Assembly (NCBI GenBank): GCA_009711805.1
Contig: VEMX01000014.1
Span: 1 to 64,000 of the forward strand
Direction: 5' to 3'
Source: Balneolaceae bacterium
Lineage (GTDB): Bacteria; Bacteroidota; Rhodothermia; Balneolales; Balneolaceae
Length of the DNA: 64,000 bases
Translations under genes and position numbers: made by a program
The notes under the pieces: generated by a model
The model's database searches: none
The model's input: only the letters and a program-made list of their open reading frames with translations
What the model was told of the DNA's origin: nothing
Part shown: piece after piece, positions 12,114-40,115 of the stretch
How the letters are laid out: the number at the start of each line of letters is the position of its first letter
How positions within the stretch are numbered: the first letter of the stretch is position 1

Positions 12114-12600
12114 TCACTTGATATAAAACCATGGAACCACTTCAATTTTCCTTTCCACAGCGCGGTGTTTTAGGGTTTGTTGAATGGGTGAAAGATAATC
12201 AAACTTTCGCATAGGTCTATTGTTGATGTGTCGTTCGACGGTTTTAATGCGTTGCTCAGATACTTCCCGCAGATCCGGACCCTTAGGAAAGAACTGGAGG
12301 ATCACTGCAATCCTGTTTTCCACCGTGCCTTTATCTTGTGAGGTATAAGGGCGGGTAAAGTACACATCGGCGTCTAATTTGCCGGTGATCGCCTGGTGGT
12401 TAGCAAAGGCCTTATCATTATCGAGCGCCAGGGTTTTGATAAACGCTTTTGGAATCCGTGCCAGCATCTGCTCAATAGCTGCTTCGGTGCGATCTGCCCG
12501 GCGGCTGGTACCCTTTTTCAGGCGGGTGAGCACCTTGCACGATCGGTGAGGACCATGGGCCTTGCCTGCCATCAGGTCCCCAAGGCGTGTGCGCTCCTCG
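12114..12600 (-). pseudogene. IS30-family transposase remnant (C-terminal part)
   Basis: The reading frame resembles the catalytic half of IS30 transposases. A degenerate RTRLGDLMAGK replaces the usual WEGDL segment, followed by TLALDNDKAFANHQAI (second Asp), then DADVYFTRPYTSQDKGTVEN with the catalytic Glu, and FFPKGPDL. The N-terminal helix-turn-helix is absent. The part between the first two motifs is shorter than normal and the flanks are unrelated repeat DNA, so the element is decayed. It ends in EVVPWFYIK. A related C-terminal scrap is found near 23.9 kb. Confidence 0.8.
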
Positions 12601-16144: not shown

Positions 16145-16203
16145 CTATTTCTTTTATCTCTTATCTCTTATCTTTAATCTTTTATCTATCGTCTATCGTC
16201 TAA
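16145..16203. repeat. Pyrimidine-rich tandem tract overlapping a gene 3' end
   Basis: A run of near-identical units (TTTTATCTC, TTATCTC, TTATCTT, then CTATCGT twice) reaches into the end of the BtuF-like gene at 16186. The last codons of that gene (GLDDRR) are therefore encoded by repeat DNA, and slippage here could change its C-terminus. Confidence 0.65.
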
Positions 16204-16932
16204 TCCTCTTCTCCATGTATTAAGCTTTTTGAAGGCGATGAGCATACGAGAACCATACCAGCTGAACCATTCGCCATCCACAAGTTCTATGCGTGCTGAA
16301 GGGAGGTGTTCACGGATTTCGGCTATATGCTTTTCTTTGAAAGGATAAGGTTCACTACTAAGGAGAATAAGTTCAGGATTTATCCTGGAGAGTTCTTCCA
16401 GGCTTGTTTTAGGGTATCGTGTTTGGTCTGCATATACATTTTTGAGGGCGTACAACTGCATTACGTCGTGAATGTAGGTATCATTTCCTATGGTCATCCA
16501 GGGATCCTTCCATATAAAATAAGCAGCGCGTACGGGAGGTACTCGTGGGATTTCAGCAACTAATTCAGAGATACGAGTAGTTAGTTTTTCGGCTTCCTTT
16601 GATGCCTTCAGCATAGCTCCCAGTTCACCAATAGCTTCCACCGCTTCAGCTACTGTATTAATATCCGTAACATGAACCTCAGTATGTCTGGCCAGTTCTT
16701 CGACATCTTCTTTGTTGTTTTCTTCCTTATTGGCCAGGATGAAATCCGGCTTCAGACCAAGTATTTTTTCGATACGGGGATTTTTGGTTCCGCCGATAAT
16801 GGGGATTTCCCCAATCTTTTCTTCGGGATGGATGCAAAAACGAGTTCTTCCTATAATTTTGTCACCGAAGCCTAAATCAAATAGTAATTCGGTAAGACTC
16901 GGAACCAGGGATACAATACGTTGATACGACAT
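16186..16932 (-). CDS. BtuF-like helical-backbone metal receptor (periplasmic-binding fold, no signal peptide)
   Basis: The 248-residue protein begins RIVSLVPSLTELLFDLGFGD, the standard start of cobalamin or siderophore binding proteins with two domains joined by a long helix. It has IGGTKNPRIEKILGLKPDFI in the first lobe and TSLEELSRINPELILLSS in the second. No signal peptide or lipobox is present. Cytosolic or standalone members of this type are often annotated as cobalamin-binding proteins; the ligand here is unknown. It is the last gene of the leftward sulfur block, 31 bp after the desulfurase-like gene. Confidence 0.8.
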   Translation of the reverse strand: MSYQRIVSLVPSLTELLFDLGFGDKIIGRTRFCIHPEEKIGEIPIIGGTKNPRIEKILGLKPDFILANKEENNKEDVEELARHTEVHVTDINTVAEAVEAIGELGAMLKASKEAEKLTTRISELVAEIPRVPPVRAAYFIWKDPWMTIGNDTYIHDVMQLYALKNVYADQTRYPKTSLEELSRINPELILLSSEPYPFKEKHIAEIREHLPSARIELVDGEWFSWYGSRMLIAFKKLNTWRRGLDDRR

Positions 16933-16963
16933 GTGTTGTATACATTTCTTTGTTGAAAGTGTA

Positions 16964-18388
16964 TCAATGGTAGCCTAATCCACAGACTTTTAAAAACTGT
17001 TCTGTTGAATCTTTTGCAAGATTGACCGGCGAAAATTCTCCGGTGTTTTTGTTTTGTGTATAATCAAGATTGGGGCCATGTCGGAGAATATCCTTCAAAG
17101 CTGAAACGAAAGTTTGTACATCGTCCACAGTATTATAGCAGCCAAAGCTAATGCGTACCAATCCGGGCATATTCGACTTCTCTCCTCGCTGCAACTGTTT
17201 TTTCCAGGCAGTTATTTCTTCTTCCCCAAGGTCTAATAGTGATACTACATAGGGGTGGGCGCAGAAGCATCCATTTCGTACCCCAATGCCATACTCATGG
17301 CTTAATACGGCCGCTAACTTAAAGTGCGAAATTCCTTCAGCGTTATAAGAAACAACTCCTACCCGTTCAGCTTTTAAATCTCCATATAAAGTAACCCGAT
17401 CAATCTTTTGAAGCTCTTCAAGGGCATAATGAGTCAACTGCATTTCATGGCTGGCGATTTGGTGCATCCCCATTTTTTCGAGCTCTGTTATTGCTTTGGC
17501 CAGGGCCACCGCTCCTATAACGTTAGGACTTCCCGCTTCCTCCCGATCGGGTAATCCCGCCCATACAACATCATCTAAAGTGACCGACTGTACCGTTCCT
17601 CCACCACAATATTCGGGAGCTGAATTCAGGAACAAATCTTTAGGGGCAATAAGAGCCCCGGTTCCAAAAGGAGCATACATTTTGTGAGCAGACAGAGCGA
17701 GAAAGTCGATGTGTTCGGGATGCCCGTTGGGCCTGATATCAATACTGCGATGGGGAGCGAGTTGAGCTGCATCAACCAGTACTTTTGCTCCGGCACGGTG
17801 AGCCATGCGGGCTATGTTGTAGATGGGCTGAATAAGTCCCGTAACATTAGAAGCTCCGCTAATACATACCAAAGCTATGTTTGGAGCGTATTGTTCCAAT
17901 TTTTCTTTTAAATCGCCAAGATCCAGCTTACCGCTTGGGGTTGTGCGCAGGTGAATGGTTTTAGCTTTATTTCTCCAGGGTAAATCGTTGGAATGATGCT
18001 CCATGCCGGTAGACAGTACAATGGCGTCATCCGTAAAAGGAAAGCGATAAGAAAGCTTGTTGATGGCTTCGGTTGTGTTTTTGGTGAAGATGACCGTGTT
18101 GTCTTTGGTGCTGGCTCCCACAAAACGGGCTACTATTTCATGTGCATCTTCATACAGTTGAGTACTGATTCGGGATTTTATTCCACTTCCCCGGTGCACG
18201 CTGGAATAATAGGGGAGGAAATCGTGAATGAAGTCAGTAACCGACTGCAAGGCAGGAGTACTGGCGGAATTATCAAGATTGATATACCGGGTGGTTTCAC
18301 CTGTGGCGAGGGGGGTGGGAGTATTTGCTCCGGTAACCCCGACAGGGGAAATAGTATTCTGATTGTTATTTGTAGAAATTAATTTCAT
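16964..18388 (-). CDS. SufS-like class V aminotransferase / cysteine desulfurase homologue
   Basis: The 474-residue PLP enzyme has a 35-residue low-complexity lead and then the class V fold from YINLDNSASTPAL. The PLP lysine is Lys236 in LSAHKMYAPFGTGALI, and MEHHSNDLPWR is the usual cofactor-stacking region. RNGCFCAHPYV aligns Cys376 with the persulfide-forming Cys of SufS, so desulfurase chemistry is feasible. A C-terminal extension of about 40 residues ends in VCGLGYH. The gene begins 1 bp after the rhodanese-like gene, suggesting the two proteins pass sulfur or act together; this is inference. Confidence 0.85.
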   Translation of the reverse strand: MKLISTNNNQNTISPVGVTGANTPTPLATGETTRYINLDNSASTPALQSVTDFIHDFLPYYSSVHRGSGIKSRISTQLYEDAHEIVARFVGASTKDNTVIFTKNTTEAINKLSYRFPFTDDAIVLSTGMEHHSNDLPWRNKAKTIHLRTTPSGKLDLGDLKEKLEQYAPNIALVCISGASNVTGLIQPIYNIARMAHRAGAKVLVDAAQLAPHRSIDIRPNGHPEHIDFLALSAHKMYAPFGTGALIAPKDLFLNSAPEYCGGGTVQSVTLDDVVWAGLPDREEAGSPNVIGAVALAKAITELEKMGMHQIASHEMQLTHYALEELQKIDRVTLYGDLKAERVGVVSYNAEGISHFKLAAVLSHEYGIGVRNGCFCAHPYVVSLLDLGEEEITAWKKQLQRGEKSNMPGLVRISFGCYNTVDDVQTFVSALKDILRHGPNLDYTQNKNTGEFSPVNLAKDSTEQFLKVCGLGYH

Positions 18389-18389
18389 A

Positions 18390-18974
18390 TCAACATCCCA
18401 TTCGCATTAATTTTTGTGATCTTTTAGTTTGGGTTTTGTTCTGTTTGCGAAAGTAATAGCCAAGTACATGGTGGTCTTCCACATATCTTGGCCGCCCACC
18501 AAAAAAAGCTGAGAGCTCTTTGATTTCATTTGCCAGGCTTATTTGTGTGGGAGGAATCTGAAGGGGCATGCGGGGATATAGAATCCGTTCGTGCCAGTCG
18601 TGGGCCCCGCCACGCAATACCGAGATATTATCATGCCCACGTTTCTTGAATGCTTGCCAGGCCTGAATCGACAGAGAGTCATCCCCGGAATAGAAAACGA
18701 CAGCTTGGGTATAGCTTAATTTTTCATTTTTTAGCTTTGATGTAGGAATATGCCGGGCTGTAGGGAGGTGAAATTCGTTGAAGGCCTGTTCCGGGCGTAC
18801 ATCAATAAGAGTCAGTTCATCTCTGTTTTTGATGGAGTGGGCAAGCTCTGTTACTGAGATATATTCCGGGCCCCGCAGGGAAACAGGAATTGGGAAAATC
18901 AATGACGTAACTAATGCCAGGAATGATAACAGAAAAGCACCGGCGGCAAGTTTTTGGTTTAGGGAAAAGCTCAT
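18390..18974 (-). CDS. Membrane-anchored rhodanese-like protein lacking the active-site Cys
   Basis: From the ATG at 18974 the product has 194 residues: one N-terminal membrane helix (about 8-30), then a rhodanese domain with LIDVRPEQAFNEFHLPTARH and a C-terminal LRGGAHDWHE. The active-site loop reads VVFYSGDDSLSIQAW, with no Cys at the catalytic position, so sulfur transfer by the usual persulfide is not possible. An upstream in-frame ATG at 19007 would overlap the preceding gene and lacks a ribosome site. It sits 4 bp after a YeeE-type gene, so a structural or sulfur-sensing role beside the transporter is possible. Confidence 0.82.
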   Translation of the reverse strand: MSFSLNQKLAAGAFLLSFLALVTSLIFPIPVSLRGPEYISVTELAHSIKNRDELTLIDVRPEQAFNEFHLPTARHIPTSKLKNEKLSYTQAVVFYSGDDSLSIQAWQAFKKRGHDNISVLRGGAHDWHERILYPRMPLQIPPTQISLANEIKELSAFFGGRPRYVEDHHVLGYYFRKQNKTQTKRSQKLMRMGC

Positions 18975-18978
18975 GGTA

Positions 18979-19569
18979 CTAACTCTTCGTAGTTGTTTTG
19001 GATTCAATTTTTTCGGATACCCAAAAACCGGCTAAGGCAGTCATCACAAGAATGAAAACCAAAATCCCGGAGGGCAGGTTGAAATATTTGGTAAAGGTGA
19101 TGTTGCCTATGGGCGTAGCATTATAAAATCCTTCTACAGCAGGATACAGTTCTCCAAAAAGCAGTATGCCTGTGAGCATACCCAGTACATTCGTCCAGCC
19201 GTCCAGGCTTCCGGTAGCTCCGGCTACACAGGACGTGCCGGGGCAGTATCCGCCAATAATAAAACCTACTCCGAAAATAAGCCCCCCAACAAGTTGTGGA
19301 ACGACATAGGTGGGAGTAAGGTACACCAACTCAAGTTGAAGGATCTCAAAATGGTTAAGCCAGAATAACCCAATCATGGCTGTGATGATGGCGGTAAACA
19401 TCATCTTAAAAACAGTGAGATCTGTTCCATAAAATTGGGCTGCCAGTTTTTTGGCGTTTCCAAGTCCGGCACGTTCCAGGAAAAAGCCAAAGGCAATTCC
19501 AATCACCAGCGCAAATATCAGGCTGGCTTCGTCTCCAATCCATCCATTAATGTAGAAAGGTCCATTCAT
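18979..19569 (-). CDS. YeeE/YedE-type (DUF395) half transporter, second copy
   Basis: The 196-residue product has about six membrane helices and the family loop GYCPGTSCVAGATGSLDG with two Cys, which in YeeE-type thiosulfate carriers lie along the substrate path. Its ATG (19567-19569) overlaps the previous stop as ATGA, so the pair is translationally coupled. An upstream reading extension to 19689 would lie inside the first transporter gene and is rejected. With its partner it makes two halves of what is one chain in E. coli YeeE. Confidence 0.88.
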   Translation of the reverse strand: MNGPFYINGWIGDEASLIFALVIGIAFGFFLERAGLGNAKKLAAQFYGTDLTVFKMMFTAIITAMIGLFWLNHFEILQLELVYLTPTYVVPQLVGGLIFGVGFIIGGYCPGTSCVAGATGSLDGWTNVLGMLTGILLFGELYPAVEGFYNATPIGNITFTKYFNLPSGILVFILVMTALAGFWVSEKIESKTTTKS

Positions 19570-20108
19570 ATCCACAGCCTCCTTACAAACCAGGCCATAG
19601 CGTAGGCTCCGGCAAATAGTGAAATCATAAAAATCCAGCTTCCTACATTCATAAGGGCTCCGCCGGTCAGGGCTTGCCCACTGGTGCAACCCCTGGCCAG
19701 TTTGGTTCCAAAAGCCATAATGATTCCTCCTGTAAACGCAAAGAAAAACCGGGTTTTGGTGGAAATAGAAGAGCCTTTTTCAACTTTGACTTTAGTGCGT
19801 CCGGCCAGGATGCCGGATATAAATCCGCCGATGAGAACGCCAAGCACTTCAAACACCAACCAGTCTTTTAGCGGGCTTACAGTTCCATCACCAAGATATC
19901 CTTTATAAAAATCGTTGGCCTGAGCATGTGATTCTGCTACAGAGTTAACACCACTCGCCACTACGGAAGTCATAGCTCCTGAGGCTCCGATACCTCTTCC
20001 CATTACCAGGAACGTAAGGAGCAGAACCAGCCCCAGTCCGATTCCACACACATAGGGGTTCCAGTAGGGGGCGGGGTGTTCTTTTTTTAAGATGAATGAA
20101 GATAACAT
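19566..20108 (-). CDS. YeeE/YedE-type (DUF395) half transporter, first copy
   Basis: The product has 180 residues from the ATG at 20108, which has a GGAG site 7 nt upstream; the longer frame to 20162 overlaps the rhodanese gene. Four to five membrane helices are seen, with the signature LARGCTSGQALTGGALMNVG carrying a single conserved Cys. YeeE (TsuA) proteins take up thiosulfate. The gene lies 14 bp after an exported rhodanese and overlaps the second half-transporter by 4 bp, so these products probably work as one uptake unit. Confidence 0.88.
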   Translation of the reverse strand: MLSSFILKKEHPAPYWNPYVCGIGLGLVLLLTFLVMGRGIGASGAMTSVVASGVNSVAESHAQANDFYKGYLGDGTVSPLKDWLVFEVLGVLIGGFISGILAGRTKVKVEKGSSISTKTRFFFAFTGGIIMAFGTKLARGCTSGQALTGGALMNVGSWIFMISLFAGAYAMAWFVRRLWI

Positions 20109-20122
20109 GAGGAGACTCCGGG

Positions 20123-21025
20123 CTAATTTTCGAGCACTACAGGGTTGTCTTTGGTAGCCCATTCGTGAAAGGAGCCATCAAAAACTTTGACATTATATCC
20201 CAGCTTTTTTGCCGCGAAATAAACGGTGGTAGCCTGCTGGCCTATGTGGCAGTAGAGAATAAGAGGAATGTCCTGGTTTATTTCCTGTTCATTAAAAACC
20301 GCCTGTAGTTCTGAGTTATTCAGAAATGTATAGGCACCATGGGGACCTTCTTTTATCATAGATGTATAAGGGATGGTTTTGGCGGACGGCAAGTGACCTT
20401 TTTTCCCACCCATTCCTTCTTCAATTCCCTGGTAATAAACAGGTGAGCGAGCATCTGCAATATGGTAGCCGGAGGTATTAACCTTTGATTTTACAAAGTT
20501 AATATCCGTAACGATATCTGGATTGATATTGGGGGTGAAGCTTCCTTGTCCAGGTTCAGGGACGGCATCTGTGACAGCTCCTCCCCGGGACTTCCAAAGA
20601 GGCAGCCCGCCATCAAGTATAAAGGTGTGATTGGAATATCCGAGGTAATCGAGGGTGAAATAAAGTCGGGTCATGGGCGAAACCCAGTTTGATCCTACAT
20701 ACAGAACTACGGTATCTCCGTCATTCAGTCCTTTCTTTTCCAGCAACTCAACCAGCTCTTCCACTGAAGGCAGGTCGTAGATATAGCTTCGGTCTTCTGC
20801 AGTTATGGTGTATTCCGATCCATCCATAAAAACAGCACCCGGAATGTGTTCTTTCTGGTACTGTTCTTTATTTCCAATATGGAAAAGGACAAGATCGTCC
20901 CGGTCTAAATTATTCTGAAGCCATTCAGCATGTACAAGAGGTGAATGGTTGTTTTGTGAAAAGGCAGAAAAGTCGAAAAAAAGGAGTATAAAAGCAGAGA
21001 GTAGTAAATGTTTCATAGTCATCAT
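20123..21025 (-). CDS. Exported tandem-domain rhodanese (thiosulfate sulfurtransferase-like)
   Basis: The 300-residue product has a signal peptide (KHLLLSAFILLFFDFSAFS). An inactive first rhodanese domain (VLYVGSNWVSPM at the pseudo-active loop, DGGLPLWKSRGG) precedes an active second domain with LYCHIGQQATTVYF, whose Cys259 is the persulfide Cys. Such enzymes move sulfane sulfur from thiosulfate or mercaptopyruvate to acceptors. Three clustered ATGs (21025, 21022, 21016) could all start the protein and no ribosome site decides. It lies just before the thiosulfate-type transporter genes, so it probably acts in the periplasm. Confidence 0.88.
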   Translation of the reverse strand: MMTMKHLLLSAFILLFFDFSAFSQNNHSPLVHAEWLQNNLDRDDLVLFHIGNKEQYQKEHIPGAVFMDGSEYTITAEDRSYIYDLPSVEELVELLEKKGLNDGDTVVLYVGSNWVSPMTRLYFTLDYLGYSNHTFILDGGLPLWKSRGGAVTDAVPEPGQGSFTPNINPDIVTDINFVKSKVNTSGYHIADARSPVYYQGIEEGMGGKKGHLPSAKTIPYTSMIKEGPHGAYTFLNNSELQAVFNEQEINQDIPLILYCHIGQQATTVYFAAKKLGYNVKVFDGSFHEWATKDNPVVLEN

Positions 21026-21104
21026 TTTGTGTTAAATGGTGACTAAATTACGTGCTTTCTATAGCCAGGTTATAGACAAGGGTGCGACATATTCGGCCAA
21101 TTGA

Positions 21105-22070
21105 TTATGGCTGCTCATCAGAAATGGGAGTACCGTATTTATTTTTCCAAAGGCGTTGTAGTTGTCGTGGAGCTTTAAAGCCGCACATCTGTGAAATAGT
21201 GCTGACCGTGTAATTAGGGTTGTTAATCAGGTGTCGGGCCAGTTCCAGTTTTATATTGTTTTTAAATTCGGTGACGGTGTGCCCCGTGGCTTCTTTAAAA
21301 GATCGTGTGAGGTTTCGGACGCTGGTATTTCCTATTCTGGCCAGTTCTTTCAGGGAGGGATTTTTATCAGGGTTGGCTATGATGTAGTTCTGAACTTTAT
21401 GAACCAGCGGGTTAAAGTGCGTGTGATAATCAAGGTAAATGGAATGTTGGGTGCTGGTTTCCTGCCGTCTCAGATATACCACCATTTCGCGGGCCACTAA
21501 GGAGGAGACAATAGGCCCCTGATTTTCTTCAATAATAGAAAGAGACATGTCGATACCTGAAGTCATTCCGGCACTGGTATAGATACCTGCATCAGAAACA
21601 AAAAGCTTGTCAGATTCCACCTTCACTTCAGGGTAGTTTTCCTGCAGGTAGTCGATGCATTTCCAGTGGGTGGTGCAGCTTTTGGAGTTCAGTAATTCTA
21701 TTTCAGCCAAAATCATTGAAGCTGTACAAACAGTAGCCAGCTTTACCCCTGTTTCGTAGTTTTTGTGTATCCAGGATTTGGTAGCTTTAATTTCAGCCTG
21801 AAGGCTGCCGGTGGTGAATGTCTGGAAATCTATCCCTGGTATGATGATAAAATCGTTGGGGTTCAATGAGATATCGGAGGGATGTTGAAGGTCGGAAAGC
21901 GTGAGCCCCTGTTCGGTGAGTACCTTGTTACTGGCTGCTGCAAAAATCAGCTTATAATCAATGTTGCCAAGCTGGGTAGCTTCATAAAAAACCTGGACGG
22001 CTCCCGCCATGTCCATCACATGCACATAGGGAAATAACAGAAAGCAGATGTTTTTTTGATTTATTTCCAC
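21105..22070 (-). CDS. GlxA-family transcriptional regulator (DJ-1/PfpI plus AraC)
   Basis: The 321-residue protein has a DJ-1/PfpI-like sensor half (residues 5-190) with the nucleophile-elbow region LATVCTASMILAE. An AraC-type tandem helix-turn-helix follows (about 220-320), ending with TVSTISQMCGFKAPRQLQRLWKNKYG. The ligand is unknown. It lies 79 bp upstream of the rhodanese-transporter block on the same strand, so it may control that block; that is inference from position. The next upstream gene is 41 bp away. Confidence 0.9.
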   Translation of the reverse strand: MEINQKNICFLLFPYVHVMDMAGAVQVFYEATQLGNIDYKLIFAAASNKVLTEQGLTLSDLQHPSDISLNPNDFIIIPGIDFQTFTTGSLQAEIKATKSWIHKNYETGVKLATVCTASMILAEIELLNSKSCTTHWKCIDYLQENYPEVKVESDKLFVSDAGIYTSAGMTSGIDMSLSIIEENQGPIVSSLVAREMVVYLRRQETSTQHSIYLDYHTHFNPLVHKVQNYIIANPDKNPSLKELARIGNTSVRNLTRSFKEATGHTVTEFKNNIKLELARHLINNPNYTVSTISQMCGFKAPRQLQRLWKNKYGTPISDEQP

Positions 22071-22111: not shown

Positions 22112-22966
22112 TTAAGAATAGCTATGGATGATGGATTCGGCCTGCCGGCAGTAGCTTCCGCCAAATAAATTAGCGTGCACCAGGATCGGATACAGATTGT
22201 ACAGCGTAACCCTTGAATCAAAACCATCCTCAAGCGGATACTCTTCATTATAGCCTTCATAGAAATTGGCTGAAAAACCACCAAAAAGCCGGGTCATTGC
22301 CAGGTCCATTTCCCGATGGCCATAGTACACCGCCGGATCATAGATGCTGGCATTTCCGCTTTTGGTAAACATGAAGTTTCCACTCCATAGGTCGCCATGT
22401 AAAAGAGCCGGATCTTCGGAAGGAAAGATAGATCCCAGTTTTTTATACATACCTTCAGCAGCCCGAAGTACCGTTCGGTTTAACGTTCCTGCTTCAACTC
22501 CCATTTTGATCTGAGGTTCAATACGCTCAAGGGTAAAAAAGTCGAGCCAGTTAGAGTGAGGGGTATTCGACTGTGGAAGTCTCCCAATATAGTTGTCGTG
22601 ATCGAGGCCGAAGGCTTCATGGGTTGCTCGATGAAGGATGGCAAGATCTTTCCCAAAATTAAAGGAGGAGTCTTTTTTCCCGCCACCTTCTGAAATCAGG
22701 CTCAGCAGGAGGAAATGTTCATTTTCAAGGATAACAGCAGGAATCTGAAAATTAGTGTTGGTATCCGCTAAAAGGTTGAGCCCTTTTGCCTCTACCTGAA
22801 ACATGCGGGGCGGGGCATCCATATTCCATTTGAGGAAATACTTTTTATCGGATTCCACTACTACTTTTGCAGCCTGGTTAATGTCGCCGCCATGAAGAGT
22901 TTGTACATCGCTGATCTTTTCTTCTACTTCTTCCTGTATAGCGTTCTTAATCGTATTAGGGAGCAT
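22112..22966 (-). CDS. Fructosamine/ketosamine-3-kinase family protein
   Basis: The 284-residue protein has a kinase-like fold. A glycine-type loop (LHGGDINQAAKVV) is followed by the ATP Lys in YFLKWN, the catalytic loop LLHGDLWSGNFMF and the metal-binding IYDPAVYYGHREMDLAM. Family members phosphorylate sugar residues on glycated proteins or free ketosamines so that the adduct falls off. Its start is 6 bp after a low-molecular-weight phosphatase gene, an association described for bacterial ketosamine kinases, where the phosphatase supplies ribulosamine by dephosphorylating its 5-phosphate. A deglycation role is therefore likely. Confidence 0.88.
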   Translation of the reverse strand: MLPNTIKNAIQEEVEEKISDVQTLHGGDINQAAKVVVESDKKYFLKWNMDAPPRMFQVEAKGLNLLADTNTNFQIPAVILENEHFLLLSLISEGGGKKDSSFNFGKDLAILHRATHEAFGLDHDNYIGRLPQSNTPHSNWLDFFTLERIEPQIKMGVEAGTLNRTVLRAAEGMYKKLGSIFPSEDPALLHGDLWSGNFMFTKSGNASIYDPAVYYGHREMDLAMTRLFGGFSANFYEGYNEEYPLEDGFDSRVTLYNLYPILVHANLFGGSYCRQAESIIHSYS

Positions 22967-22972
22967 AATCGG

Positions 22973-23491
22973 CTATTCTTTTTCAACAAACGGTTTTAGT
23001 TCATTCAGCAAGGCCTCACAGCTCCTGGAGACAATATCAAAGACGTTTTCAAAACCTTGCAGCCCTCCATAGTAGGGGTCGGGGACTTGCCCGTCTCCGG
23101 GATTGGGGTCAAAATCACGCATGCGTTTTACTTTATGCACATATTTATCCCTTTTATCCATAGCTTTGATGTTGGAATAATTTTCATTGTCCATGGCCAG
23201 TATCAGGTCAAATTCTTCCAGATCGGCATATTCAAACTTTCGGGCTTTGGAGGGGAGATGGATTCCTCTTTTATTTGCGGTAGCCTGACTTTTGCTATTC
23301 GCGCTTTCCCCTACGTGATAGGCTGCCGTACCTGCCGAATCGATATAAAAATAATCTTCGAATCCCGATTCTCTAACTTTATGAATGAAGATACCTTCAG
23401 CTGTTGGGCTTCTGCAGATGTTGCCCAGACATACAAAGCAGAGTTTATAGGGGGCGTCTTTGGTGATGCTTCGTTCTAATGCTTCGTTCAT
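22973..23491 (-). CDS. Low-molecular-weight protein-tyrosine-phosphatase family protein
   Basis: The 172-residue product carries the CX5R P-loop as Cys21-LGNIC-Arg27 followed by SPTAEG, and the general acid in VPDPYYGG near residue 140. These are the complete catalytic elements of the family. Next to a ketosamine kinase, the substrate may be a ribulosamine-5-phosphate protein adduct rather than phosphotyrosine; this is inferred from context. It is the first gene of the pair. Confidence 0.9.
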   Translation of the reverse strand: MNEALERSITKDAPYKLCFVCLGNICRSPTAEGIFIHKVRESGFEDYFYIDSAGTAAYHVGESANSKSQATANKRGIHLPSKARKFEYADLEEFDLILAMDNENYSNIKAMDKRDKYVHKVKRMRDFDPNPGDGQVPDPYYGGLQGFENVFDIVSRSCEALLNELKPFVEKE

Positions 23492-37872: not shown

Positions 37873-39171
37873 ATGCCAATGGACACTGCCACTAAGTTGA
37901 AAGCCAAAACTGACCACAAAAACCGATTAAGTAAAACGGTTATTCGAGAAAGGTTTCAGTCAATTCGTGATTTTACTACCGTTCTAGTTAAACCCCTTGA
38001 GACCGAAGATTTTGTAATACAGGCAGCCGAATTTGCCAGCCCAACAAAATGGCACCTCGCACATACCAGTTGGTTTTTTGAGACTTTTGTGCTGAATAAA
38101 TTCCAGGACGACTTTGAAAGCATACACCCTCAGTATGCCTATTTTTTCAACTCATACTATCTGCAAACGGGGGTGCCCTTTACCAGGGCGAAAAGAGGGG
38201 TATTGTCTCGGCCCACGGTTAAAGAAGTGTTTGAATACCGAAAATATGTAGATGAACAGATTATTACTTTTATAGAACAGGCCGATGATAAAACTTGGAA
38301 AGAAGCTGCAAAAATAATCGAAATTGGAAATAATCATGAACAGCAGCACCAGGAGCTTATCCTTACCGACTTGAAGTATATGTTTGCCCAAAGTCCGTTA
38401 ATGCCGGTGTATCAAGAAATAGAACATCAACCGGTTGAAAGTATACCGGAGCTAAAATGGGTTTCATTTATTGAGGGTGTAGTAGAAATTGGGAGTAAAG
38501 GGGAAGAGTTTACCTACGATAATGAACATCCCCGCCATAAGATTTATGTGCAGAATTTTGATCTGGCCAATCGCCTTGTAACGAACGGGGAGTACCTGGA
38601 GTTTATAAATGATGACGGCTATGAACGACCGGAGTTTTGGCTGGATGAGGGATGGTCTACAGTAAAAGAACAGAAATGGAAGGCTCCTTTGTATTGGTTT
38701 AAACGAGAGGGGGAGTGGATGAATTTCACACTTAGCGGAGCCAGAACTGTAGATGTGAATGAACCTGTTACACATGTGAGTTATTATGAAGCCGATGCCT
38801 ATGCCCGCTGGAAAGGGCTTAGGCTTCCCACAGAGGAAGAGTGGGAGCATGCCTGTAATCAGTTTCCTCCAAAAGGTAATTTTGTGGAGCAGAAGAATTT
38901 TCATCCCAGGCCGGTGGAGTCATCAAAGAGTAAATTACATCAGATGTGGGGAGATGTATGGGAATGGACCCAAAGCGCTTATTCGCCTTATCCGAATTAT
39001 AAACCCCTGCCGGGAGCGCTGGGAGAATACAATGGCAAATTTATGGCCAACCAATATGTATTAAGAGGGGGATCCTGTGCCACATCCAAAACACATATCC
39101 GAAAAACATATCGGAACTTTTTCCATGCCGATGCCCGTTGGCAGTTTAGTGGAATAAGATTAGTTAAATAA
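37873..39171 (+). CDS. egtB: Ergothioneine biosynthesis protein EgtB (hercynine sulfoxide synthase)
   Basis: The 432-residue protein has an N-terminal DinB-like domain with the three iron-binding His (His64 in WHLAHTSWFFE, His155 and His159 in NNHEQQHQEL) and a C-terminal formylglycine-generating-enzyme-like domain (THVSYYEADAYARWKGLRLP, MWGDVWEWT, LRGGSCATS). EgtB joins hercynine to a thiol donor with oxygen and iron. No egtC or egtA is nearby, so cysteine may be the direct donor, as in compact egtBD systems; that is inferred. The second ATG (37879) is an alternative start. egtD follows 5 bp later. Confidence 0.92.
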   Translation: MPMDTATKLKAKTDHKNRLSKTVIRERFQSIRDFTTVLVKPLETEDFVIQAAEFASPTKWHLAHTSWFFETFVLNKFQDDFESIHPQYAYFFNSYYLQTGVPFTRAKRGVLSRPTVKEVFEYRKYVDEQIITFIEQADDKTWKEAAKIIEIGNNHEQQHQELILTDLKYMFAQSPLMPVYQEIEHQPVESIPELKWVSFIEGVVEIGSKGEEFTYDNEHPRHKIYVQNFDLANRLVTNGEYLEFINDDGYERPEFWLDEGWSTVKEQKWKAPLYWFKREGEWMNFTLSGARTVDVNEPVTHVSYYEADAYARWKGLRLPTEEEWEHACNQFPPKGNFVEQKNFHPRPVESSKSKLHQMWGDVWEWTQSAYSPYPNYKPLPGALGEYNGKFMANQYVLRGGSCATSKTHIRKTYRNFFHADARWQFSGIRLVK

Positions 39172-39176
39172 TAAAT

Positions 39177-40115
39177 ATGCAAACAGACACAAAGAACCAG
39201 TCTATGCTGGACGAAGTACTCGATGGACTGCGTCAGTCTCAGAAATCACTGCCCAGTAAATTTTTTTATGATGAAAAAGGCTCAAAAATCTTTAATGAAA
39301 TTACACAACTGAAGGAGTATTACCCTACCCGTACCGAGCGCCGAATACTGGATAGGAATATCACAGATATTGGCAGGCATCTGGGCGATAAGGTGGCCTT
39401 GTTTGAACCGGGGAGCGGAAGCAGTGAAAAAACAATGGTTCTACTGACCCGGCTCCCGGAAATCAAATACTATATTCCTATTGATATTTCCGGAGACTAT
39501 ATTTTTAAAGTAGCTGAAAAACTAAAGCGGCAATTTGAGGGTATTGAAGTTGTCCCGGTACAAGCCGATTATACCCGCCCTTTTGAGCTGCCTGAGGTGA
39601 ATGATGATGTTCGAAACATAGTGTTTTTCCCAGGATCTACGATTGGGAACTTTAACCTGCAAACGGTTCACCGCTTTCTGAATGTAGTTGCAAATATAGC
39701 AGGAAGTAACGGGGGGTTCCTGATTGGAGTGGATCTGAAGAAGGAGATCCCTCTTCTTGAGGCAGCCTATAATGATGCCAAAGGTGTGACTGCAGCTTTC
39801 AATAAAAATATACTGCATCACATTAACAGAAAAACAGGGGCAAATTTTGATGTAGATAAATTTCGGCACAAAGCTACCTGGAATGAAAAAAAAGGCCGTA
39901 TTGAAATGCACCTGATTGCAGATAAGGATCACACCGTTCAGTTAAATGGGGAAGCAGTTCATTTTAGTATGGGCGAGTCTATTCATACCGAAAACTCCCA
40001 CAAATATACATTGGATGAATTTGAAGAAATGGTGAGCCCTTGGTTTGAAGTGAAGCAAGTGTGGCTGGATGAGAACAGATGGTTTAGTGTACAGTATCTT
40101 GAGCCGGTAGGTTAG
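39177..40115 (+). CDS. egtD: L-histidine N-alpha-methyltransferase EgtD
   Basis: The 312-residue protein begins with the EgtD lead (SLPSKFFYDEKGSKIFNEIT, then EYYPTRTERRIL). The SAM site is LFEPGSGSSEKTMVLL, and FFPGSTIGNF follows at about residue 145. It trimethylates histidine to hercynine, the EgtB substrate. Adjacent genes and order support a two-gene ergothioneine pathway; release of the final thione may use an enzyme coded elsewhere. Confidence 0.94.
   Translation: MQTDTKNQSMLDEVLDGLRQSQKSLPSKFFYDEKGSKIFNEITQLKEYYPTRTERRILDRNITDIGRHLGDKVALFEPGSGSSEKTMVLLTRLPEIKYYIPIDISGDYIFKVAEKLKRQFEGIEVVPVQADYTRPFELPEVNDDVRNIVFFPGSTIGNFNLQTVHRFLNVVANIAGSNGGFLIGVDLKKEIPLLEAAYNDAKGVTAAFNKNILHHINRKTGANFDVDKFRHKATWNEKKGRIEMHLIADKDHTVQLNGEAVHFSMGESIHTENSHKYTLDEFEEMVSPWFEVKQVWLDENRWFSVQYLEPVG

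Follow-up and report, generated by a model that had tools for sequence, protein, structure and literature searches.

A rhodanese-fold protein that lacks the catalytic cysteine and ends in a single terminal cysteine accompanies a split YeeE transporter in a conserved gene unit of a Balneolaceae bacterium (genome G000, 4.08 Mb). On the evidence of gene order and protein similarity, the unit consists of five genes, TST2-YeeE1-YeeE2-Rhod-PLP, at positions 21025-16964 on the minus strand of the window, which is the whole 64,000-nucleotide stretch of contig C3 that was analyzed. The terminal-cysteine pattern, as read from the homologues collected, spans three phyla: Bacteroidota, Gemmatimonadota, and Chloroflexota. 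We judge the chances to be about even that the five genes form one relay that carries sulfane sulfur from the envelope to the cytosol, a relay of which we infer the substrate, the direction, and the carrier chemistry.

The locus had been described in the earlier note as a tightly packed block of six genes preceded by a GlxA-type regulator, and the ORFs, Pfam domains, and gaps all agree with this description. All seven ORFs were found on the minus strand with the predicted domains, as follows.

Positions 21105 to 22070, minus strand: GlxA/FtrA-type regulator with DJ-1_PfpI and HTH_18 (AraC HTH) domains (Pfam, NCBIfam).
Positions 21026 to 21104, minus strand: GlxA-TST2 intergenic region, a probable promoter/operator (alignment with the equivalent region of G060).
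Positions 20123 to 21025, minus strand: TST2, an exported two-domain rhodanese of the thiosulfate/3-mercaptopyruvate sulfurtransferase type (PF00581 twice).
Positions 19566 to 20108, minus strand: YeeE1, a half-transporter resembling the C-terminal half of YeeE/TsuA, PmpA-like (PF04143).
Positions 18979 to 19569, minus strand: YeeE2, a half-transporter resembling the N-terminal half of YeeE/TsuA, PmpB/DUF6691-like (PF04143, weak PF20398).
Positions 18390 to 18974, minus strand: Rhod, one N-terminal transmembrane helix followed by a rhodanese fold without the catalytic cysteine (Pfam Rhodanese).
Positions 16964 to 18388, minus strand: PLP, a cytosolic class V cysteine-desulfurase-like enzyme (Aminotran_5, PF00266).
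Positions 16186 to 16932, minus strand: BtuF-like protein with a metal-receptor fold and no signal peptide (Peripla_BP_2; NF038402, 168.9 bits).

Read from the sequence, the gaps are 79 bp (GlxA-TST2), 14 bp (TST2-YeeE1), 4 bp (YeeE2-Rhod), 1 bp (Rhod-PLP), and 31 bp (PLP-BtuF), and YeeE1 and YeeE2 overlap by 4 bp. TST2 and Rhod each have one N-terminal hydrophobic stretch, and PLP and BtuF have none. GlxA is immediately preceded by genes for a low-molecular-weight phosphatase and a fructosamine kinase (22112-23491; gaps of 6 and 41 bp), so the co-directional run continues past 22070. The two form a protein-deglycation-type pair that adjoins GlxA in G060 as well. Scans for sigma-70 promoters and terminators at the locus gave signals not clearly above those of shuffles. 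Elsewhere in the window (12114-12572), a 152-amino-acid ORF resembles by eye the C-terminal part of an IS30-type transposase, with no Pfam match.

The earlier note had proposed searching relatives for the same gene order, and this order was found. G023 (locus L031), from another genus of the same family, carries all five genes in sequence, with identities of 51, 79, 79, 42, and 62% from TST2 to PLP, and its Rhod and PLP genes overlap. G013 and G060 keep the order of the first four genes and lack PLP, and TST2 is split into two ORFs in G060. The BtuF-like gene, which had been taken as the end of the block, is ruled out as a member of the unit: in G013, G023, and G060 an opposite-strand, luciferase-like gene (PF00296; the family was tested in G023) separates the two, and BtuF adjoins PLP in the window solely because this gene is absent there. 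A search for the module in plasmids returned only three records.

The placement of a GlxA-type regulator ahead of the block holds for the window and for G060, where an ortholog of 70% identity occupies the equivalent place, and fails for G013 and G023, where an opposite-strand AraC-type gene is found. Judged from gene position, GlxA is one of two alternative regulators of the unit. The alternative AraC-type regulator (L031, 6356-7720; L146, 11281-12774) has a cysteine-rich segment, CPPCGCSxDH...CxxCxMPL, near predicted membrane stretches, which might serve to sense a metal or a thiol. The 79-bp stretch ahead of TST2 aligns with its counterpart in G060 with a score of 56 (shuffles, 22.6 +/- 4.1, maximum 39.5), which is probably the match expected of a shared control region, though the two bacteria are related.

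The rhodanese fold of Rhod is present, with a PF00581 score of 57.7 bits and Foldseek matches to rhodanese domains. Its active-site loop reads FYSGDDS at the place where the aligned loop of 6mxv reads FYCGGG. This loop has no catalytic cysteine, and the reading of Rhod as an ordinary persulfide-transferring rhodanese is not supported. The sole cysteine of the protein is Cys194, the final residue of a tail ending in MRMGC. Of 47 Bacteroidota Rhod proteins or YeeE2-Rhod fusion parts, 46 have a cysteine at the last or second-to-last residue, in nearly every case preceded by glycine; in most it is the only cysteine of the rhodanese part, and for the remaining homologue, L198, the ending KKKREGC is present in another frame. 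Such a terminal cysteine is missing from all 94 of the other proteins that were identified by homology in the Rhod loci. Cys194 is invariant in an alignment of 26 Rhod proteins, in which just three further positions are invariant. Two other rhodaneses checked in G000 have a single cysteine about 43 residues before the end, at the loop position, and no terminal one. Beyond Bacteroidota, the Rhod homologue on a Gemmatirosa plasmid ends in RRRGC, and 16 distinct Chloroflexota YeeE2-Rhod fusions end in GGCG or GGCGG, a count that took in only loci whose YeeE2 bore the search motif.

A structure model of Rhod has a pLDDT of 90, with a disordered tail at about 53-59; the low confidence of a model of YeeE2-Rhod (pLDDT 67) does not allow the tail to be positioned. 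Many genomes encode YeeE2 and Rhod as a single fusion protein, which suggests that the two act together. From the charge and signal features and the order of the fusion, the Rhod domain would lie outside the cell membrane. The tail resembles the sulfur-carrying C-terminal arm of SoxY, GGCGG (PMC6067878), in its flexibility, its Gly-Cys ending, and its predicted place on the non-cytosolic side, and the Chloroflexota endings are close to the SoxY motif itself. However, Rhod has a rhodanese fold and not a SoxY fold and is membrane anchored or fused to a transporter, so that the likeness is confined to the tail. Cys194 might instead gate the system by forming a disulfide, or serve as a ligand for a metal or haem.

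The two half-transporters cover different parts of PF04143: 172-309 of 310 for YeeE1 (79 bits) and 10-152 for YeeE2 (62 bits), with a cut-off of 27 bits. In TsuA, C293, C91, and C22 line a path from the outside to the inside that leads on to C17 of YeeD (PMC11073785). YeeE1 has Cys141, invariant in 38 of 38 proteins, at the position of TsuA C293 (counted along a phmmer alignment), and YeeE2 has Cys109 in the motif GGYCPGT, invariant in 39 of 39, at approximately that of C91 (from HMM end coordinates). No counterpart of the cytosolic-side C22 was seen, and a sequence search of solved structures with YeeE2 gave no match. TusA/YeeD (PF01206) is absent from G000, G013, G023, and G060, and the control search was positive in 11 of 14. 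The system shares its transporter family and two of three relay cysteines with the thiosulfate importer TsuA-TsuB (YeeE-YeeD), but it is split, has no YeeD/TusA, and carries an extra tail cysteine that would lie outside the membrane.

A split YeeE combined with a desulfurase-like enzyme and a cytosolic metal receptor had been called unusual. The split itself is not, since it is of the PmpA/PmpB type described in Serratia and Hyphomicrobium, for which a heterodimer was proposed (PMC11582611); the desulfurase neighbor is: among the four Balneolaceae loci, two have it, and a different desulfurase-type enzyme takes this place in Gemmatirosa. The likeness to PmpA/PmpB lies in two half-length YeeE proteins with one conserved cysteine each, at TsuA C293 and C91. 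The halves here are longer (180 and 196 amino acids, compared with about 130) and come with an obligate-looking Rhod partner, an exported rhodanese, and a desulfurase-like gene. In a Chloroflexota locus (L236, about 2243-2550; G542:C26), a YeeE2-like frame has a stop (TGA by the search table) at the conserved cysteine of GGYCPGT (ALTGF*PGT) and could possibly encode a selenocysteine version of YeeE2; PMC13188914 already includes a selenocysteine YeeE, with the motif GUxSG.

The YeeE1-YeeE2-Rhod triad is also found in other settings. One representative per set was identified by family search: in one set, the upstream genes encode a TAT-signal PhsA-like molybdoenzyme, a 4Fe-4S protein, and NrfD, and in a second, in which YeeE2 is fused to Rhod, they encode an octaheme cytochrome of the tetrathionate-reductase family and a cytochrome b561. 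Its position beside such genes suggests that Rhod accompanies envelope enzymes of sulfane-sulfur compounds generally. A similar arrangement, in which two Sulf_transp domains and a rhodanese-related gene come after psrABC, is noted in Thermonerobacter, Melioribacter, and Ignavibacterium in the passage of PMC6338057 on this cluster, which does not mention a missing catalytic cysteine or a terminal cysteine. Compared with that psrABC, DUF395, and rhodanese cluster as the passage gives it, the present unit has TST2 and PLP in place of psrABC. With the split YeeE, the exported rhodanese, and the triad near thiosulfate/polysulfide-reductase-like or tetrathionate-reductase-family genes, sulfane-sulfur handling plus import is the best reading of the locus. 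To this extent the sulfur import and transfer block of the earlier note stands, without its BtuF end and its ordinary rhodanese.

TST2 has a signal-like N terminus and a single cysteine, Cys259, in the loop YCHIGQQAT of its C-terminal domain. Its closest solved structures are 1urh and 1uar, and Cys259 aligns with the cysteine of 1urh. Orthologs occupy the equivalent position in G013, G023, and G060. Another two-domain rhodanese of G000, without an obvious signal peptide, lies on contig C48 (L158, 9325-14242), at the head of an assimilatory sulfur locus that continues with sulfite reductase, a siroheme-type methyltransferase, and PAPS reductase. We considered whether the module is tied to a missing sulfate assimilation and rejected this idea, as sulfite reductase and PAPS reductase are encoded together in G000 itself. 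Across the class, the presence of sulfate assimilation, read by eye, did not track the module.

The PLP enzyme keeps the active-site residues of group II desulfurases (EHH, DxxQ, SxHK, and the loop cysteine), with Cys376 as the catalytic-type cysteine. It shares with SufS/CsdA the fold, the PLP lysine motif SAHK, these residues, and the loop cysteine, but it scores 292.9 bits against the SufS model TIGR01979 (cut-off 475) and belongs to a clade with the loop RNGCFCAHP that is separate from SufS in the tree (support 100/100). Relatives in this clade come from Chloroflexota, Ignavibacteriota, and others, and G000 also has a canonical SufS (L035). The ortholog in G023 sits at the equivalent operon position, and two of the four Balneolaceae loci have none. 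The gene directly after TST2-YeeE1-YeeE2-Rhod in Gemmatirosa encodes a desulfurase-type enzyme that shares only 27% identity with PLP. This different enzyme behind the same four genes makes it plausible, from gene context, that PLP is the cytosolic partner of the sulfur module.

Outside the unit, PLP homologues have unrelated neighbors: cell-division genes in Chloroflexota, and asd, lysA, and metH-like genes in Ignavibacteria. In the Ignavibacteria-like loci L074, L104, and L071, these are aspartate-semialdehyde dehydrogenase, diaminopimelate-decarboxylase-like, and homocysteine-methyltransferase genes, and this setting may point to a role of the homologue in the metabolism of sulfur amino acids. 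The homologue of several Chloroflexota (L090, L094, L095) adjoins a deglycation-type pair similar to that upstream of GlxA. Counted by genus in the phylum sample, co-occurrence of PLP and YeeE2 was borderline (7 of 13 genera versus 52 of 170, p = 0.07), and in Anaerolineales, PF04143 was present in 10 of 11 PLP-bearing genomes versus a background of 110 of 201, which is no more than suggestive. PLP as a lineage-wide partner of YeeE finds no support in the neighborhoods, and the co-occurrence by genus is only borderline.

In the proposed relay, TST2 would take sulfane sulfur from a donor, either thiosulfate or a related compound, and bind it at Cys259, and the sulfur would then move to Cys194 on the flexible tail observed on Rhod, the rhodanese fold of which, having lost its catalytic cysteine, would now hold and aim the tail. 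The tail might dock at the outer mouth of a YeeE1-YeeE2 channel, and sulfur or thiosulfate would travel through it via the conserved Cys141 and Cys109. The weakest step is the last, in which a cytosolic enzyme would take over the sulfur with no TusA/YeeD; where PLP is present, the candidate is its Cys376, which would form a persulfide, and taken alone, PLP as the acceptor has far less than an even chance. Control of the operon probably rests with GlxA, acting at the conserved stretch ahead of TST2. The likely role is the use of external thiosulfate or polysulfide as a sulfur source, or its clearance.

The locus might simply perform ordinary thiosulfate import of the PmpAB type, with Rhod as a degenerate stabilizer, its tail cysteine forming a gating or tethering disulfide, and PLP as a passenger with a role of its own. 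The precedent of a split YeeE with a proposed heterodimer (PMC11582611) speaks for this, as do the two Balneolaceae operons without PLP and the unrelated neighborhoods of its homologues elsewhere. However, a structural accessory need not keep one C-terminal cysteine across three phyla, and an independent desulfurase-type gene lies behind the same four genes in Gemmatirosa; we regard simple import as unlikely, though still to be taken seriously. Sulfur could also flow outward, with PLP making persulfide from cysteine and YeeE1-YeeE2 exporting it to Rhod and TST2 for envelope chemistry, for example cyanide detoxification or sulfuration. Desulfurases normally make persulfide, PLP keeps the SufS active-site residues and cysteine, and a desulfurase is found together with an exported rhodanese in two cases, but the characterized members of the YeeE family import (PMC11073785, PMC11582611) and two Balneolaceae loci carry the transporter and TST2 without PLP, which makes export improbable.

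It is also conceivable that PLP is an EgtE-like C-S lyase for ergothioneine, unrelated to the transporter. The window contains egtB-like (DinB_2 plus FGE-sulfatase) and egtD-like (Methyltransf_33) genes at 37873-40115, which make ergothioneine biosynthesis probable, and PLP has a weak score of 42 bits against the EgtE model (cut-off 400). However, these genes are 20 kb distant, the SufS match is far better (293 bits) with the desulfurase cysteine kept, and the coupling to Rhod is found in two genera; we therefore consider an EgtE-like role very improbable. Returning to the sulfane-sulfur relay, we tentatively generalize it, at somewhat below an even chance: in Bacteroidota, Gemmatimonadota, and Chloroflexota, catalytically dead rhodaneses that are anchored next to split YeeE transporters or fused to them, and whose C terminus bears a Gly-Cys swinging arm like that of SoxY, may be an undescribed class of membrane sulfur carriers that pass sulfane sulfur between envelope enzymes and the cytosol, to which a desulfurase-type PLP enzyme would have been recruited at least twice.

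The split-YeeE sulfur module is of a known kind, but the carrier-like dead rhodanese was not found described in the literature searched; that search, with most subscription journals outside its scope, returned no description of a rhodanese with a terminal cysteine. The way in which YeeE-family transporters receive sulfur from the non-cytosolic side has been called poorly understood (PMC11582611). For this step, the terminal cysteine of a protein that is tethered to the transporter or fused with it offers a concrete candidate that can be mutated. The finding suggests that the "rhodanese" genes beside split YeeE, which are often annotated as sulfurtransferases, may encode carriers and not enzymes.
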